In this document: positions 12,637 through 29,864 of the stretch, one piece after another | Position numbering within the stretch: position 1 is the first letter of the stretch | Layout: each line of letters starts with the position of its first letter | Assembly (NCBI GenBank): GCA_026195255.1 | Contig: JAPHSS010000058.1 | Location: forward strand, 1-39,104 | Length of the DNA: 39,104 bases | Source: Gammaproteobacteria bacterium | GTDB lineage: Bacteria > Pseudomonadota > Gammaproteobacteria > SZUA-229 | Direction: 5' to 3' | Made by a program: the position numbers and the translations under genes | The notes under the pieces: generated by a model | What the model saw: the letters and a program-made list of their open reading frames with translations, nothing else | What the model was told of the DNA's origin: nothing | Database searches by the model: none

Positions 12637-13038
12637 ATGATTAAAACGATTACGCTGAGCACCGCATTAATCGCGGCTCTGCTTGCACTGGGTTTTCTTT
12701 TGACAATGGGTATAGGAAAACCTGTTAGCACCGATCTTTCTGTGATTGGTCAGGGCAAACCGGTTCTGGTTCTGGCATATGAGAGCTTTTCACCTAACGG
12801 CGTTGAGGCGCTTAATAGCCTGCAGCAGGTGAGGCACGATTTTGATTCGCGTCTGGATTTTGTGGTGGCCGATTTGGGAACTCCGCAGGGTCGAGGGTTT
12901 GCCAGTCGCTATAAGCTGGCCAATGGTCAGGCGCTGTTCCTGAATCAGAATGGCCAGCCACTTCGGGTTATAAATATACCGGCAGACGAGCACGAGTTGC
13001 GCAGAAGTCTGGAATCTAAACTGGCGGCTGTGGAATGA
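12637..13038 (+). CDS. Membrane-anchored thioredoxin-fold protein lacking CxxC
   Basis: A 133-aa protein with an N-terminal signal or anchor segment (about 5-28). It is followed by a thioredoxin-like region: KPVLVLAYESFSPNGVEALN (strand, then the active-site helix), DFVVADLGTPQGRGFASRYKL (strand and helix), and QALFLNQNGQPLRVI, which resembles the cis-Pro/beta-hairpin part of the fold (FLNQNGQPLR resembles the usual FFDxxGxxv). The position of the redox CxxC reads FSPN and the protein contains no cysteine at all, so it cannot be a disulfide oxidoreductase. GGGAG lies 12 bases upstream of the ATG. A binding or chaperone role is possible. The fold call is moderate. Confidence 0.6.
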   Translation: MIKTITLSTALIAALLALGFLLTMGIGKPVSTDLSVIGQGKPVLVLAYESFSPNGVEALNSLQQVRHDFDSRLDFVVADLGTPQGRGFASRYKLANGQALFLNQNGQPLRVINIPADEHELRRSLESKLAAVE

Positions 13039-13146: not shown

Positions 13147-13165
13147 ATTACAATCAAATTATAAT
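13147..13165. promoter_or_regulatory. Probable RHH operator overlapping -10 of the RHH gene
   Basis: ATTACAAT (13147-13154) and ATTATAAT (13158-13165) are direct repeats with an 11-base period. The second contains the perfect -10 hexamer TATAAT. The same repeats with the same period occur before the SulP gene at 15167-15196, which marks this as the likely binding site of the RHH protein encoded just downstream. Confidence 0.6.
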
Positions 13166-13187
13166 CATATGTTAACAGGATGCTTTA

Positions 13188-13379
13188 ATGGAAAACAAAA
13201 CGGCACGTTTTACCGTATTACTTGACCCCAGAAAAAAGAAGGCGTTTGAGTTGCTTTGTGCGTCACAGGATATAACCCCCTCACAGGTTGTCCGCCAGTT
13301 AATCAGGGGTTATCTCGAGCAGTATGATGTTGATTTTCTTGAACCTGAGAATAGTCATTCACAACTACCCAGAAAATAA
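13188..13379 (+). CDS. Ribbon-helix-helix (CopG/Arc-like) DNA-binding protein
   Basis: A 63-aa regulator. ARFTVLLDP is the N-terminal beta strand that pairs in the dimer and enters the major groove. It is followed by helix 1 (RKKKAFELLCASQD), the turn ITPSQ and helix 2 (VVRQLIRGYLEQY), the standard RHH layout. A short acidic-then-basic tail completes it. It is convergent with the SulP transporter, the stop codons being 11 bases apart, and shares direct-repeat operators with it. Inferred role: autorepressor and repressor of the SulP gene. No toxin gene follows, so it is unlikely to be an antitoxin. Confidence 0.8.
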   Translation: MENKTARFTVLLDPRKKKAFELLCASQDITPSQVVRQLIRGYLEQYDVDFLEPENSHSQLPRK

Positions 13380-13390
13380 TCATTGTAGTG

Positions 13391-15142
13391 TTAATTTTTA
13401 GGAGGTCGCATATCCTCTTTAATCGATTCAATATAATCTTTGCAGGTTGTTAGAAAATTTGAAACAGGGTAAGTCTCATCATTAGACGATGCTGATTGCT
13501 CATCTAGTTCAGAAATGTGTTTTATGGCGCTTTCAAAACTCTCAAAATAGTTGTTCTCGCCAATTTTTGCAACGATACCGGCTCTGCGCAGCTTACCATC
13601 AACACGGCTATTAGCGCCTGACAGCATAACGATAACATTGCGTTTTTGTAACGAGTCAATAACTTCTTCCAGGGTTTGTAAACCGGTCTCGTCAATAAAC
13701 GGCACCCACTTTAAACGGATAAGTAAAAATTTCGGAACCGTATGTGTACCCGCAAGTGCCCGTTCAAAGTTTTCAACAGCACCAAAAAAGAATGGACCTT
13801 CAACGCTAAAAACGACACTTGAATCCGGTATGTTTTTTTCGCCCTGGAGGGATAACTCTTTATTTATTTCTTCGGATGTGGATTGGTAAACCTCTACACT
13901 AGAAGCCATTCTGCGTAAAAAGTGAAGTGTTGCCAAAATAACACCGATGTTGACTGCGATAACCAGATCAGCAAAAATCGTTAAGGTAAATGTAATAATT
14001 AATATTGCAACATCTGCCTTAGGTGCACGTTTAAGCATTTTAATAAAATGCCGGGCATTGCTCATATTCCACGCAACAACAAATAAAATGGCAGCCAGTG
14101 CAGCAAGTGGGATGTTGGCGGCTAATGGTGCGAGGGCAATCAGTATTACGATAAGAGTGACTGAATGAACGATTCCTGCAATCGGGCTATTGCCGCCATT
14201 GCGTATATTGGTGGCAGTTCTTGCAATGGCACCGGTTGCCGCGAATCCACCAAATAATGGTGCCATTATATTAGCAATACCTTGCCCGACAAGCTCCTTG
14301 TTGGAGTTGTGGCGAGTGCCTGTCATACCATCCGCCACCACTGCGGAGAGTAGTGATTCAATTGAGCCTAACATGGCAATAGTAAACGCGGGGCCGATAA
14401 GTTCGATCACCTGAGACCATTCAGGTGAGGGCAGATGAAATTCAGGTAAGCCCTGTGGAATACCGCCAAATGCACTGCCAATAGTTTGCACACCATTCAG
14501 TGGGAGCAGGCTTTGAAATAGCGTAGCCACTATAAGCACAATAAGCGGCCCCGGAACGCGCTTTAAAAAGACCAGGCGTGGAGAGAATATAACCAGCACC
14601 AGTGATGCAACTGCAATGAGGGTTGTATTCAGGTGAAATTGAGGTAACACACTGAATAGATGGATGAGCTTTTCATGAAAGTGTTCACCGTGTATCTCCG
14701 GTAATCCAAAAAAATACTGCCACTGTCCAATGAAAATAATAATGCCGATGCCAGAAGTAAAACCGACGATCACGGGGTCGGGAATAAATTTTATTATGCC
14801 GCCCATTTTTGTCAGGCCCAGTGCGAGTAAAATTAATCCGGCCATAATTGTTGCTATCTGTAGGCCTTCAATTCCATATTGCGCCGTGATGCTAGCTAGA
14901 ACAACGATAAAGGCGCCGGTAGGGCCGGCAATTTGAAATCGACTACCGCCAGAAATAGAGACGATTAACCCGGCAATGATAGCCGTGTAAATACCTTGTT
15001 CGGGTTTTGCACCAGAGGCGATGGCAAAAGCCATTGCTAAAGGCAGTGCGACCACACCAACGATAACGCCAGCTATCAGGTTGTTATACCAGTGTTTTGT
15101 GCCTAACAAACCAGCATAATAGGCTTCTTTTAGCGCAAACAT
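13391..15142 (-). CDS. SulP family inorganic anion transporter with STAS domain
   Basis: Inner-membrane anion transporter (583 aa), possible substrates sulfate, bicarbonate or other small anions. The N-terminal pattern NLIAGVIVGVVALPLAMAFA and AGPTGAFIVVLA are SulP signatures. About 12-14 membrane segments run to residue 410. A C-terminal STAS domain (about 440-545) follows, with VVFSVEGPFFFGAVENFER and IRLKWVPFIDETGLQTLEEV resembling the anti-sigma-antagonist phosphorylation loop. An extra acidic tail of about 40 residues ends KEDMRPPKN. Its upstream region carries three operator-like repeats shared with the convergent RHH gene. BicA-type bicarbonate uptake is an option but cannot be distinguished by eye. 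Confidence 0.92.
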   Translation of the reverse strand: MFALKEAYYAGLLGTKHWYNNLIAGVIVGVVALPLAMAFAIASGAKPEQGIYTAIIAGLIVSISGGSRFQIAGPTGAFIVVLASITAQYGIEGLQIATIMAGLILLALGLTKMGGIIKFIPDPVIVGFTSGIGIIIFIGQWQYFFGLPEIHGEHFHEKLIHLFSVLPQFHLNTTLIAVASLVLVIFSPRLVFLKRVPGPLIVLIVATLFQSLLPLNGVQTIGSAFGGIPQGLPEFHLPSPEWSQVIELIGPAFTIAMLGSIESLLSAVVADGMTGTRHNSNKELVGQGIANIMAPLFGGFAATGAIARTATNIRNGGNSPIAGIVHSVTLIVILIALAPLAANIPLAALAAILFVVAWNMSNARHFIKMLKRAPKADVAILIITFTLTIFADLVIAVNIGVILATLHFLRRMASSVEVYQSTSEEINKELSLQGEKNIPDSSVVFSVEGPFFFGAVENFERALAGTHTVPKFLLIRLKWVPFIDETGLQTLEEVIDSLQKRNVIVMLSGANSRVDGKLRRAGIVAKIGENNYFESFESAIKHISELDEQSASSNDETYPVSNFLTTCKDYIESIKEDMRPPKN

Positions 15143-15166
15143 ACTTAACCGCCTCTTAATAAAATG

Positions 15167-15196
15167 ATTACAATTGGATTATAATAACATTACAAT
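15167..15196. promoter_or_regulatory. Triple direct-repeat operator before the SulP gene
   Basis: ATTACAAT (15167-15174), ATTATAAT (15178-15185) and ATTACAAT (15189-15196) are spaced exactly 11 bases apart, one helical turn. The middle unit is self-complementary and contains TATAAT on the minus strand, 36 bases before the SulP start codon. It matches the pair before the RHH gene. It also lies within the divergent upstream region of yjdM. Confidence 0.65.
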
Positions 15197-15257: not shown

Positions 15258-15599
15258 ATGAGTTTTACTTTACCATCCTGTCCAAAATGCGGCTCTGAGT
15301 ATGTCTACGAGGATCAGCAAATGTTAATTTGCCCTGAATGTGCCCATGAATGGAATCCTTCAGAGGCTCAAGTAGATGAAGATGTTTTACAGATTAAGGA
15401 TGCTAATGGCACCCGGTTGGCCGATGGTGACAAGGTTACCTTAATAAAGGATTTAAAAGTTAAAGGCACATCATCCGTTCTCAAAATAGGCACAAAAGCC
15501 ACCATTAAACGATTAGTGGATGGTGATCACGATTTGGACTGCAAGGTCGATGGTGCGGGGGACATGATGCTTAAATCAGAATTTGTTAAGAAAGTGTAA
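15258..15599 (+). CDS. yjdM: Zinc-ribbon protein YjdM (PhnA family)
   Basis: A 113-aa protein with an N-terminal zinc ribbon, [20 protein letters not shown] ending in a CPEC pair, and a C-terminal KOW/SH3-like domain: VKDANGT-type strand, [19 protein letters not shown], then KSEFVKKV. Length and order match E. coli YjdM, formerly called PhnA although it is not phosphonoacetate hydrolase. The molecular role is not known. It is divergent from the SulP gene and may share its control region. Confidence 0.93.
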
Positions 15600-16651: not shown

Positions 16652-17470
16652 TTAATTTGTGCCATATAACTCTTTGTAAGGTACAGCGTAAAAAGCTTTA
16701 GCTCCACCCTCTAAAAAGTAATATTCATTCATTTTTTTCTCTTTTAAGTAGTACTGCAACCAGCGCACCTGTTTACCAACAGCATCATAAATACACAGTG
16801 CATTTTTCTTTGCTTTAGCTTCTGCAATATAATCATTGAGTTTGTTTGTGTTATCAAGGTTTACCGGTTTTTCAAAACCAGCAAATATGCGATCTTTACG
16901 TTGCAAACTATCTCTAACATCTAACACAATGCACTTGTTATTAGATTTATCAAGAAAGGCCTTTGGCTTAAGCAAATGTTTTTTAAATTCTTCTTCCGAT
17001 ATTAATTTATCAACATTAATTCGAGCTTCATTCAGTAATATAGATGCTTTAGGGTAACGTTTCACCCAGTCATATATGCCACCATCAAACGCCAGGGTAT
17101 CGGTTAATTTTCCCATGCGTTTAGTTTTCAAAACTGCTTCGTAAGATTTTGTGCAGGTATGTCCATTGCAATAAAAAACGATAGTTTTTCTGTTATCTGC
17201 GTATAACTTGTTTACCTTAGTAGTAAAGTCAAAACTAGATAGAGGAATATTAACTGCATTTTTAATATGTAATACTGAATATTCATACTTTGATCGTGTG
17301 TCAACAATTGTGTATGAATTTCTCTTCTTATAAAGATCGTCTAGTGCAATAGTCTTCACATGAGGGTAGTTTGATCTAACCGGAAAATCATCTGCTGCTT
17401 TAGCGAAACTCATAAAAAACATATTTAATAATAAAATAAATATAATGGATGGTTTAATTAGGTTGCGCAT
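16652..17470 (-). CDS. Exported tandem-rhodanese protein, copy A
   Basis: Periplasmic protein (272 aa) with a signal peptide (1-26, ending AKA) and two rhodanese-like domains. The first (about 38-140) has YTIVDTRSKYEYSVLHIKNA and the active-site loop CNGHTCTKSY with Cys101, so sulfur transfer or thiol chemistry is possible. The second (about 150-270) keeps IVLDVRDSLQRKDR and ends LEGGAKAFY, but the active-site cysteine is replaced by Asp in YDAVGKQVRW, so it should be inactive. It is clearly paralogous to the gene at 17887-18699 (same layout, same loop). No strong ribosome site is visible. Partners and substrate unknown. Confidence 0.82.
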   Translation of the reverse strand: MRNLIKPSIIFILLLNMFFMSFAKAADDFPVRSNYPHVKTIALDDLYKKRNSYTIVDTRSKYEYSVLHIKNAVNIPLSSFDFTTKVNKLYADNRKTIVFYCNGHTCTKSYEAVLKTKRMGKLTDTLAFDGGIYDWVKRYPKASILLNEARINVDKLISEEEFKKHLLKPKAFLDKSNNKCIVLDVRDSLQRKDRIFAGFEKPVNLDNTNKLNDYIAEAKAKKNALCIYDAVGKQVRWLQYYLKEKKMNEYYFLEGGAKAFYAVPYKELYGTN

Positions 17471-17886: not shown

Positions 17887-18699
17887 TTAATCCATAAGAT
17901 TTTTTATGGGTATTTTAAAGAAGGCGTCAGCTCCACCTTTCATAAAGTAATAATTTTTTATTCCCTTGGATTCGATTAAATACTGGAACCAGCGAACCTG
18001 TCTTCCGACCAGATCATACACATACAGGGTTTTATTGCTCTTTTTCACCTTATCCAGAAACTGATCCATTAAGACTTTATCTTTACCTGTCAAACTTATC
18101 GAGGTCTCATCTCTTGCGAATAAATAAAAGCCATCTCTATCTATACGATCTCTTATATCGAGTATAACCACTGTTTCATCAGCAGATTTTATAAATTTCT
18201 CCGCGTCCATCAAATGCGAATTAAAATTGTCTTTTGATATAAGTTTTTTCGGGTCTTTGAGCTCATTTCCTAACAACATGGCTTCCATCGGATATTTAGA
18301 TGACCAGTCAAATATTCCAGCATCAAAAGCGTATACATTTGTCAGGCGTACATAACTCATAGCACGAAGTGCTGCTTTATACGACTTCATGCATTTATGG
18401 CCATTACAATAAAACACAATCTTCTTATCGGGATGCATGTCGCGAAGAGCACTTATTTGCTCTGCATATTTTTTGGGAGTTAATGACAGGGGGACTGAAA
18501 TTGAACCTTTAATATTTAATGTTTCATATTCATATGGAGATCTTGCATCTACGATTACAGCATTCTCGCGCTGATTATATAGGTCATCTAACTCAATATA
18601 TGGCACATTTGGGTAAACTGATCGACCGGGAAAATCATCACTAGCAACTGAAGCTATTGAAATCATACTCATCAGTATAATAGCTATTATTTTATTCAT
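17887..18699 (-). CDS. Exported tandem-rhodanese protein, copy B
   Basis: Paralogue of the neighbouring downstream gene (270 aa). Signal peptide at about 1-20 (ending SVAS), then domain 1 with VIVDARSPYEYETLNIKGS and the active-site loop YCNGHKCMKSY (Cys98). The second domain has VVILDIRDRIDRDGF and the degenerate loop YDLVGRQVRW without cysteine. The ATG chosen is preceded by AAAGGG at 6 bases; an in-frame GTG 21 bases upstream overlaps that ribosome site and is rejected. Both copies share DDFPxRSxYPxV immediately after the signal peptide. The pair probably arose by local duplication followed by divergence; the intervening 400 bases argue against a tight operon. Confidence 0.82.
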   Translation of the reverse strand: MNKIIAIILMSMISIASVASDDFPGRSVYPNVPYIELDDLYNQRENAVIVDARSPYEYETLNIKGSISVPLSLTPKKYAEQISALRDMHPDKKIVFYCNGHKCMKSYKAALRAMSYVRLTNVYAFDAGIFDWSSKYPMEAMLLGNELKDPKKLISKDNFNSHLMDAEKFIKSADETVVILDIRDRIDRDGFYLFARDETSISLTGKDKVLMDQFLDKVKKSNKTLYVYDLVGRQVRWFQYLIESKGIKNYYFMKGGADAFFKIPIKNLMD

Positions 18700-19207
18700 C
18701 CAACACCCTTTAAAAATCACGCAGATTGATATTAGTACATTATCAAATATAAGTTTAAATTTATTATTATAATTTCTAACTATAACTCATTTTTAACAAT
18801 TATTTAAACATCCGTTAACTGTTTAAACACCCACTATATATTTGATAAGTAAAATCATCAAGCCTAGTTTCAATCAATGCAGGAGCACAGTGTGTTCAAT
18901 GAGTTGAAATACCAAACCACATTATGATCAAATCTCACTCGCAGCCAGGCTTTATTAACACGGCATGTCTCGTTATGTTTTTAGAGCGTTTCTATGTGTA
19001 ATAGATAACCATACAGGTAATAACTAAGAGCATCAAAACGCTTCGTAGAAGATAAAACAAATGGGCTCAGTAACATCTTTACAATAGGCATCAGTGTCTA
19101 TGCTGCTATGTCTAATCACATTTATTAGTCCTACATTTTATAAATCACAGAAAGTCTTTAATATGGGTGTCTTTACATTTGTTGACCACTTATTATTCTT
19201 TTATTAA
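18700..19207. other. Gene-free stretch with a dispersed repeat
   Basis: No gene is visible. It contains repeat copy 2 of the CACTATATATTTGA family and, near 19164, an isolated ATGGGTGTCTTT word matching the GGGTGTC repeat family seen at 31.6 and 38-39 kb. The left end should hold the promoter of the rhodanese copy B gene. Confidence 0.45.
18828..18862. repeat. Dispersed repeat CACCCACTATATATTTG, copy 2
   Basis: The best-preserved copy: CACCCACTATATATTTG followed by ATAAGTAAAATCATCAAG. The right part matches copies near 28133 (CAGATATAATCATCAA) and 35369 (AGAGTAAGGTCATTAAGC). Confidence 0.65.
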
Positions 19208-29378: not shown

Positions 29379-29864
29379 TTAATACCTTATTATATTAAAG
29401 TGTTCAGTATCTGATGGCGGCTGAAAATATTGATTAATAAAGTCGAATTCTGCTTCTGATGTAAATGCTGTCTGTTCTGGATTATTCTCATTTCTTTTCT
29501 TTAACTGTTCTTTACACTTTTCATTACTAGCCTCTACATAATGAAGCGTGTGTGTTACATCGGCTGATTCGAATATTGAGCGAAGGGTATTACGTTGTTT
29601 AATAGTGTTTGCTGGAAAATCAAGAACGACTGAAGTGCCATGTTTCAACAGTGATATAACATGTGATCTAATTATATTCTGTAAACGGCTAGAGTATTTA
29701 ATGTAATCGTTTATAGTTCTAATTTCATCAGGGTAGAGCTTACTCAGCCATTCATCTTCAATAATTAGAATGGCATTATTCTTATCAGCGAGAGAAGCTG
29801 CTAATGTGGATTTTCCTGATGCCATTTTCCCACACATCAGATGTAATGTAGTTTGCTTGTCCAT
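29379..29864 (-). CDS. P-loop kinase-like AAA_33 protein
   Basis: A 161-aa cytoplasmic nucleotide-binding protein. Walker A is GKMASGKST at residues 12-20. IIEDEWLSKLYPDE follows as the lid or substrate region and SVVLDFPANTIKQRNTLRSI as the Walker-B-like strand. LHYVEASNEKCKEQLKKRN matches the typical AAA_33/zeta-toxin-like adenine-binding region. Relatives include chloramphenicol phosphotransferase-like and polynucleotide-kinase-like enzymes. No antitoxin is adjacent, so a zeta-type toxin is unlikely. It lies downstream of the PAAR/immunity pair on the same strand with a 68-base gap. Substrate unknown. Confidence 0.78.
   Translation of the reverse strand: MDKQTTLHLMCGKMASGKSTLAASLADKNNAILIIEDEWLSKLYPDEIRTINDYIKYSSRLQNIIRSHVISLLKHGTSVVLDFPANTIKQRNTLRSIFESADVTHTLHYVEASNEKCKEQLKKRNENNPEQTAFTSEAEFDFINQYFQPPSDTEHFNIIRY

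Follow-up and report, generated by a model that had tools for sequence, protein, structure and literature searches.

The Arc repressor of phage P22 binds as two dimers to adjacent half-sites spaced by roughly one helical turn, and MetJ regulates metabolism and transport from 8-bp palindromic boxes that are contiguous, with an 8-bp period, in tandem arrays of two or more. CopG and AmrZ share the RHH fold and autoregulation. Arc is a bare RHH protein of 53 residues (PMC4803016). Among transporters, DauA, the SLC26 C4-dicarboxylate transporter of E. coli, is described as carrying succinate, fumarate and aspartate (PMC5703999); where that source deals with C4-dicarboxylate regulation in E. coli, it treats DcuS/DcuR and DctA, not an RHH protein. 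Among the papers listed in searches of the open-access PMC library, we found none on RHH_9 or PF19839 and none in which an RHH protein is connected with SulP, DauA, malic enzyme or PEP carboxykinase. Here, we describe a locus in which a 63-aa RHH protein very probably controls, judging from comparative sequence analysis, the expression of its own gene, of yjdM and of a gene for an organic-acid or anion transporter through a shared, conserved repeat. The kind of system, an RHH autoregulator, is ordinary; its content would be a regulon for an undescribed family and a context for YjdM. Such an assignment would provide a function and a precise operator for a small protein family so far carrying a fold name only, as well as a regulator for SulP/DauA-type transporters. 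Its most interesting part is the link to YjdM, a protein of unestablished role.

The window, i.e., the whole 39,104-nucleotide stretch of gammaproteobacterial DNA that was analysed, contains the RHH_9 regulator gene on the plus strand (13188-13379, ATG at 13188), a convergent gene for a 583-aa SulP/SLC26 transporter on the minus strand (sulP, 13391-15142) and, divergent from sulP, the plus-strand gene yjdM (old name phnA, 15258-15599) for a 113-aa zinc-ribbon protein. Family matches were accepted for the 63-aa protein with PF19839 (RHH_9; 76 bits against a cut-off of 23.4) and for YjdM with TIGR00686 (159.3 bits against 80.2). The transporter exceeds the cut-offs of both PF00916 (Sulfate_transp, 301.8 bits) and PF01740 (STAS, 54 bits) and falls slightly below that of TIGR00815 (370.9 bits against 380.45). 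Like DauA it combines SulP and STAS domains, and DauA (NF008660) is its best NCBIfam model; unlike DauA, it remains under the equivalog cut-off, with 530.5 of the 614 bits required. A related 546-aa stretch from Microbulbifer (L010) scored 510.4 bits with the same model, also below 614.

Among described regulators, the 63-aa protein resembles Arc (1myl, 1bdv and 1par among the fold matches) in being a bare RHH protein, yet here every half-site is an 8-bp palindrome, two or three of them occur together, and the genes concerned serve metabolism and transport. Tandem 8-bp palindromic units at metabolic and transport genes are also a feature of MetJ, from which the present system differs by its 11-bp period and by a protein of 63 residues in which no ligand- or cofactor-binding domain was recognised. 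CopG and AmrZ (1ea4, 3qoq) are alike in fold and in autoregulation and differ in operator sequence, and the sequence relation of RHH_9 to solved RHH proteins is weak. The general RHH_1 model gave 15.7 bits, below its cut-off of 20.5, and the best RHH hit in a PDB sequence profile search was ParG, with an E-value of 0.048. A structure predicted from 36 sequences (mean pLDDT 80, pTM 0.54) contains helices at residues 14-26 and 31-45; no N-terminal strand was assigned in this monomer model, where mean pLDDT over residues 1-10 is 69. Fold comparison of the model against the PDB returned no match that reaches an E-value of 0.001; the solved RHH proteins CopASO, ORF56, AmrZ, Arc and CopG were among the top rows, all rows having weak E-values, the best being 0.14. 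In the PDB profile search, 28 of 41 hits, mostly named TALE proteins, match only a short repeated stretch at about 4 bits per repeat and were set aside as an artefact of repetition. An alignment of the window's protein with 35 of 80 relatives contains 26 invariant residues, among them A6, R7, T9 and L11, which presumably form the expected DNA-reading strand. Cys24 (codon 24, 13257-13259) is likewise invariant in 36 of 36 sequences, and a redox or ligand role for it is possible.

The initial annotation had placed a pair of repeat units 22 bases before the RHH start codon, and the same pair plus a third unit at an exact 11-base period before sulP, and both sites were recovered. The first operator candidate, O1 (13147-13165), is an exact match to ATTACAAT-N3-ATTATAAT and reads ATTACAAT CAA ATTATAAT, separated by 22 bases from the ATG at 13188. 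The second, O2 (15167-15196), reads ATTACAAT TGG ATTATAAT AAC ATTACAAT and is common to the divergent sulP and yjdM genes, with 24 bases to the sulP start (15142) and 61 bases to the yjdM start (15258). A possible weak third unit of O1, ATGTTAAC (13169-13176), lies in phase with the other two and falls below the threshold of the unit count, such that O1 was scored as two units and O2 as three; the variants ATTAACAT and ATGTTAAT are used as units in relatives. The earlier description as a direct-repeat operator holds for the repetition and not for the direction: every 8-bp unit is a palindrome or near-palindrome, ATTATAAT being identical to its own reverse complement, so that strand is undefined for all of these elements and the apparent direct repeat is a row of palindromes. 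With up to three mismatches allowed, the window contains 10 matches, whereas 100 dinucleotide shuffles averaged 1.85 and never exceeded 6; nine of these matches are O1 and O2 read in overlapping registers or on both strands, and the tenth lies at 29764.

To describe the repeat in relatives, we used a palindromic 19-bp motif model derived from upstream regions of RHH relatives with the window excluded. The model was seeded with ATTATAAT-N3-ATTATAAT, the window's pattern, and 64 of 77 usable regions scored above the inclusion score; because the seed came from the window, these RHH training sites are not independent evidence. Applied to the window, the motif ranked the positions starting at 15167 (22.6 bits), 13147 (22.5 bits) and 15178 (20.0 bits) on top, followed by 13158-13176 (13.7 bits), in phase with O1; the remaining scores were at most 11.2 bits, and the reversed window reached a maximum of 11.8. 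Under a third-order Markov model, a genome of this size would contain about 0.36 sites scoring 22 bits or more, a rough figure that corresponds to 1 hit per 10 Mb. Among the RHH upstream regions of 80 named loci, 65 scored at least 11 bits and 15 below, compared with about 2% or less of dinucleotide shuffles, and in most RHH genes with a site it ends 17-31 bp ahead of the start codon. Background 150-bp windows of the same loci contained a site in 0.4% of 3435 cases, pckA and malic-enzyme sites still included. Class-sample RHH loci outside the training set, which represent 12 of 15 other positive genomes after the three with the weakest single matches were left out, had a site scoring 13 bits or more, either ahead of the RHH gene or between it and sulP, in 10 of 12 cases, the two without one in these places being L151 and L159; sulP neighbours the RHH gene in six of the 12.

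The sulP upstream regions lay outside the training and allowed a control beyond those proposed initially. A site of at least 11 bits precedes 38 of 42 sulP orthologues that adjoin an RHH_9 gene and none of 16 taken from genomes without a detected RHH_9 gene (Fisher p 6e-11, uncorrected for phylogeny or near-duplicates), so that dependence of the repeat on the presence of the RHH gene can be read from the sequences. The 42 orthologues share at least 54% identity and were aligned from the N terminus; they include several loci of the same genus and a pair from a single genome. Of the 16, three have a stop codon inside the matched frame, and upstream GC across all 16 spans 0.27-0.66, AT-rich regions included. 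When all 48 sulP loci are taken whatever their identity, 40 have a site of at least 11 bits and eight do not; these eight include two Marinobacter loci where the site precedes pckA, the gene ahead of sulP, and a Halomonas locus (L049) with a site further upstream. The same pattern extends to plasmids: on Sulfuricella pSCD, which carries the cassette with its RHH gene annotated as a hypothetical protein, sites of 22.6 bits (sulP) and 19.6 bits (RHH) were found, and a Vibrio plasmid sulP (66% identity) with no RHH relative within the fetched 8.7 kb has no site above 11 bits. The predicted reach to yjdM was supported as well, as all 21 yjdM genes at RHH loci without sulP in the fetched stretch, from five genera, are preceded by the repeat. 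In several Cupriavidus, Pseudogulbenkiania and Pusillimonas loci a site lies before sulP and none before the RHH gene, which indicates that autoregulation is not universal.

The spacing of the units is conserved along with their sequence. In deduplicated upstream regions (62 RHH, 35 sulP and 15 yjdM), unit pairs are spaced by 11 bp in 93 cases, by 22 bp in 24 and by 17, 18 or 29 bp in three, compared with about 0.01 or less per spacing in shuffles, and the 3-bp spacers between units vary among relatives, as expected if the protein reads the units on one helix face. In-phase runs of three units occur in 20 of 21 yjdM regions; the 80 RHH regions contain two units in 50 cases, three in four, one in 13 and none in 13, and the 44 sulP regions contain three in 10, two in 14, one in 16 and none in four.

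The strong form of the repeat is also rare elsewhere. Its frequent occurrence at random AT-rich sites, or its absence from relatives with both genes, had been set beforehand as refuting observations; it passed both tests, being infrequent away from these loci and conserved in most relatives that have the genes. In the 3,557,706-base assembly, the exact ATTACAAT-N3-ATTATAAT pair occurs twice only, as O1 and O2. With two mismatches allowed, 14 forward and 11 reverse matches compare with 8 and 8 for a reversed control, and the loose form (ATTATAAT-N3-ATTATAAT, three mismatches) is not enriched in this assembly (136 against 166 for the reversed control), which leaves the strong repeat as the only informative form. 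When 16 genomes picked for carrying the RHH gene were searched with a degenerate consensus, one mismatch being tolerated, 45 sites were obtained if overlapping registers are counted separately, compared with one for the reversed control. By position, 40 of the 45 fall at RHH loci, one of them placed via a contig whose coordinates match a known locus; those of L095 and L103 among the five off-locus sites fall within coding sequences, and in Pseudomonas citronellolis, one of the 16, no consensus site was found. Ten further sites, taken from among the matches listed, were scored as candidates for a wider regulon in the source assembly. The best of these ten (C67, 51107-51125, 22.4 bits) lies immediately upstream of a gene whose 286-aa product contains a 17kDa_Anti_2 domain (37.8 bits, cut-off 26.6), and the next are at 20.0 bits (C12) and 19.0 bits (C25). 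Chance expectations at the strengths of the C67 and C12 sites are about 0.4 and 1.8, rough figures from 1 and 5 hits per 10 Mb, and the C67 site may be due to chance. A 15.6-bit site on C50 that overlaps the end of an open reading frame was rejected as an operator and taken as chance. For the repeat as such, chance or AT-richness as its source is rejected on the basis of the shuffles, the Markov expectation, the specificity, the sulP control without RHH_9 and the spacing.

From the conserved arrangement, we regard it as likely that the RHH_9 protein is a local, autoregulating Arc/CopG-like repressor that binds tandem units and represses sulP, yjdM and itself, with a C4-dicarboxylate function as the most probable purpose. 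For the latter, we followed sites beyond the RHH, sulP and yjdM regions in ten loci, four of which (L060, L085, L069 and L071) fit a C4 theme. In Marinobacter santoriniensis, which has two copies of the locus, sites precede pckA, with a DauA-like sulP directly behind it, and a 414-aa malic-enzyme gene; in Agitococcus a site precedes pckA. The pckA products exceed at least one curated cut-off in both Marinobacter and Agitococcus, and the malic-enzyme name is the best NCBIfam match, below the model cut-off, with only the first 410 of 764 model positions matched. In Halomonas (L069) a site lies before a SulP gene whose product is above the DauA cut-off (749.7 against 614 bits). In Haliea (L040), the region that separates yjdM from a divergent malic-enzyme gene contains two overlapping sites (14.1 and 12.8 bits), and at L071 an additional, weaker site (14.7 bits) precedes a gene judged by eye to be aminotransferase-like. 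Both PEP carboxykinase and malic enzyme convert C4 acids to C3 acids. With DauA, PEP carboxykinase and malic enzyme as the other targets, C4-dicarboxylate use is the simplest common theme, and the controlled function would most likely be the uptake of C4-dicarboxylates by SulP together with their handling. The anion-uptake switch proposed initially is thereby supported and narrowed towards C4-dicarboxylates, with the SulP substrate remaining putative. Against this model count the RHH and sulP upstream regions in which no site reaches 11 bits, the weak fold matches, the two further strong sites of the source assembly (C67 and C12), the score of the window SulP below the DauA cut-off and the six of ten loci outside the C4 theme: the L058 site lies 131 bp ahead of that locus's own RHH gene, the L056 and L076 sites lie about 200 bp ahead of a second RHH copy (the one in L076 has a universal-stress-like gene close by as well), open reading frames are overlapped by the L084 site and by one of the two in L086, and the L088 site does not fit the theme.

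The main rival accepts binding of the sites by the RHH protein and takes the transported ion to be bicarbonate (or sulphate), so that the regulon would manage the inorganic carbon needed in carboxylation. CO2 is handled by PEP carboxykinase as well as by malic enzyme, and in the PDB the window SulP finds its best sequence match in 6ki1 (BicA, titled low affinity sulfate transporter, 188.9 bits). Bicarbonate and sulphate are moreover named, besides carboxylates, as substrates of bacterial DauA/SLC26 relatives (PMC5703999). The window SulP nevertheless scores far higher with the DauA model than with the BicA model (530.5 against 288.9 bits), the Halomonas target passes the DauA cut-off, and no carbonic anhydrase family was found among 26 distinct proteins scanned, a minority of the neighbours. 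We consider inorganic carbon an unlikely reading. Extending the C4-dicarboxylate reading, we see about an even chance that RHH_9 is a dedicated regulator of a small C4-dicarboxylate and PEP-pyruvate-oxaloacetate regulon comprising a DauA-type SulP, PEP carboxykinase and malic enzyme, that it ties in YjdM, and that the cassette moves between genera as a unit. A conserved 76-aa protein is encoded beside pckA or dauA on the minus strand in Marinobacter and Halomonas RHH loci (L060, 5071-5298; L085, 5073-5300; L069, 1121-1348); the Halomonas copy is 33% identical, and the L060 copy has no NCBIfam or Pfam match.

In the proposed mechanism, one RHH_9 dimer would occupy each 8-bp palindromic unit (consensus ATTATAAT, with the variants ATTACAAT, ATTATCAT and ATTAACAT), and two or three dimers would align on one helix face, since the units recur every 11 bp. 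The middle unit of O2 would supply the -10 TATAAT of both divergent promoters, such that occupancy of O2 would repress sulP and yjdM together, and protein bound at O1 would shut down its own gene. Physical binding, cooperativity, repression over activation, the substrate and the relieving signal are features that we infer. A consensus-only promoter scan is consistent with the O2 arrangement: TATAAT belongs to a 10/12 match on each strand, with 18-bp spacers (15207-15178, minus; 15156-15185, plus). The same scan gave 13 promoter-like sites in 2.3 kb where 5.0 were expected, two others at 10/12 lying inside sulP, which makes the overlap at O2 suggestive only. At O1 it listed no promoter-like match of at least 9/12, and the mode of autoregulation there is less certain. 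Promoter blocking, as first suggested, is thus plausible for sulP and yjdM and was not borne out at the RHH operator. The RHH protein might conversely activate its targets, and the scan result at O1 is what a weak promoter in need of help would give. Overlap of the units with a possible -10 at sulP and yjdM and their repressor-like position at most site-bearing RHH genes, 17-31 bp before the start codon, speak against activation, which we regard as improbable, and repression is retained here.

It is highly improbable that the repeats are mere AT-rich -10 promoter elements without a dedicated regulator: ATTATAAT does include TATAAT, and the loose genome matches do not exceed the reversed control, but second and third units are kept at exactly 11 bp with free spacers, and sulP orthologues without RHH_9, AT-rich ones included, have no repeat. 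Even less credible is an antitoxin or plasmid-maintenance protein placed beside sulP by chance, which might be considered because small RHH proteins are often antitoxins (see also PMC4803016) and antitoxin DNA-binding domains occur among the fold matches: no toxin family was found among the Pfam and NCBIfam matches of the neighbours in the window, although the gene directly upstream of the RHH gene (12637-13038) has no match above cut-off, and the recurrent neighbours elsewhere are sulP, yjdM, pckA, malic-enzyme and Hyf-like genes.

The cassette is sparsely distributed. The RHH protein is present in 4 of 96 genomes, the source genome included, and was not found in the other four genomes of the genus or in 49 of the family; PF19839 occurs in 16 of 274 genomes of a class sample (15 above cut-off) and in 0 of 14 control genomes. 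A close orthologue of the window SulP is absent among the 4 genus and 32 family genomes searched, where the best matches have 44% identity (G030, with internal stop codons), 43-44% in two fragments (G034) and 40% (G017), and the remaining listed ones at most 38%. Among the 80 named loci, Microbulbifer provides the best RHH match by E-value (85-90% identity over 51-54 residues) and the highest SulP (77-79%) and YjdM (84-86%) identities. Scarcity in the genus and family, together with closest relatives in Microbulbifer, suggests that the cassette may have been acquired as a unit. In 43 of the 80 loci, from gamma-, beta- and a few alphaproteobacteria, the RHH gene and sulP (57-79% identity) are convergent; at six further loci a SulP match is placed or oriented differently (identity 41-43% in five of them and 24% in the sixth), and 31 lack SulP in the fetched stretch, 21 of which contain yjdM. 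The RHH gene is followed by a co-oriented yjdM, without an intervening sulP, in 8 of 8 Marinomonas, 9 of 10 Shewanella and 2 of 3 Photobacterium loci as well as in Aliiglaciecola.

Two minor observations were made in passing. RHH_9 genes also lie near Hyf/complex-I-like membrane genes (L062, L056, L040, L150 and L151), as is also the case for several betaproteobacteria and for G060 and G093 (the G093 gene being assigned by eye), and several loci also include a distant spermidine-synthase-like gene; this neighbourhood is possibly a second regulon branch. Within the window, two adjoining genes encode similar-looking rhodanese-like proteins (16652-17470, a PF00581 match, and 17887-18720, assigned by eye), perhaps as the result of a tandem duplication.
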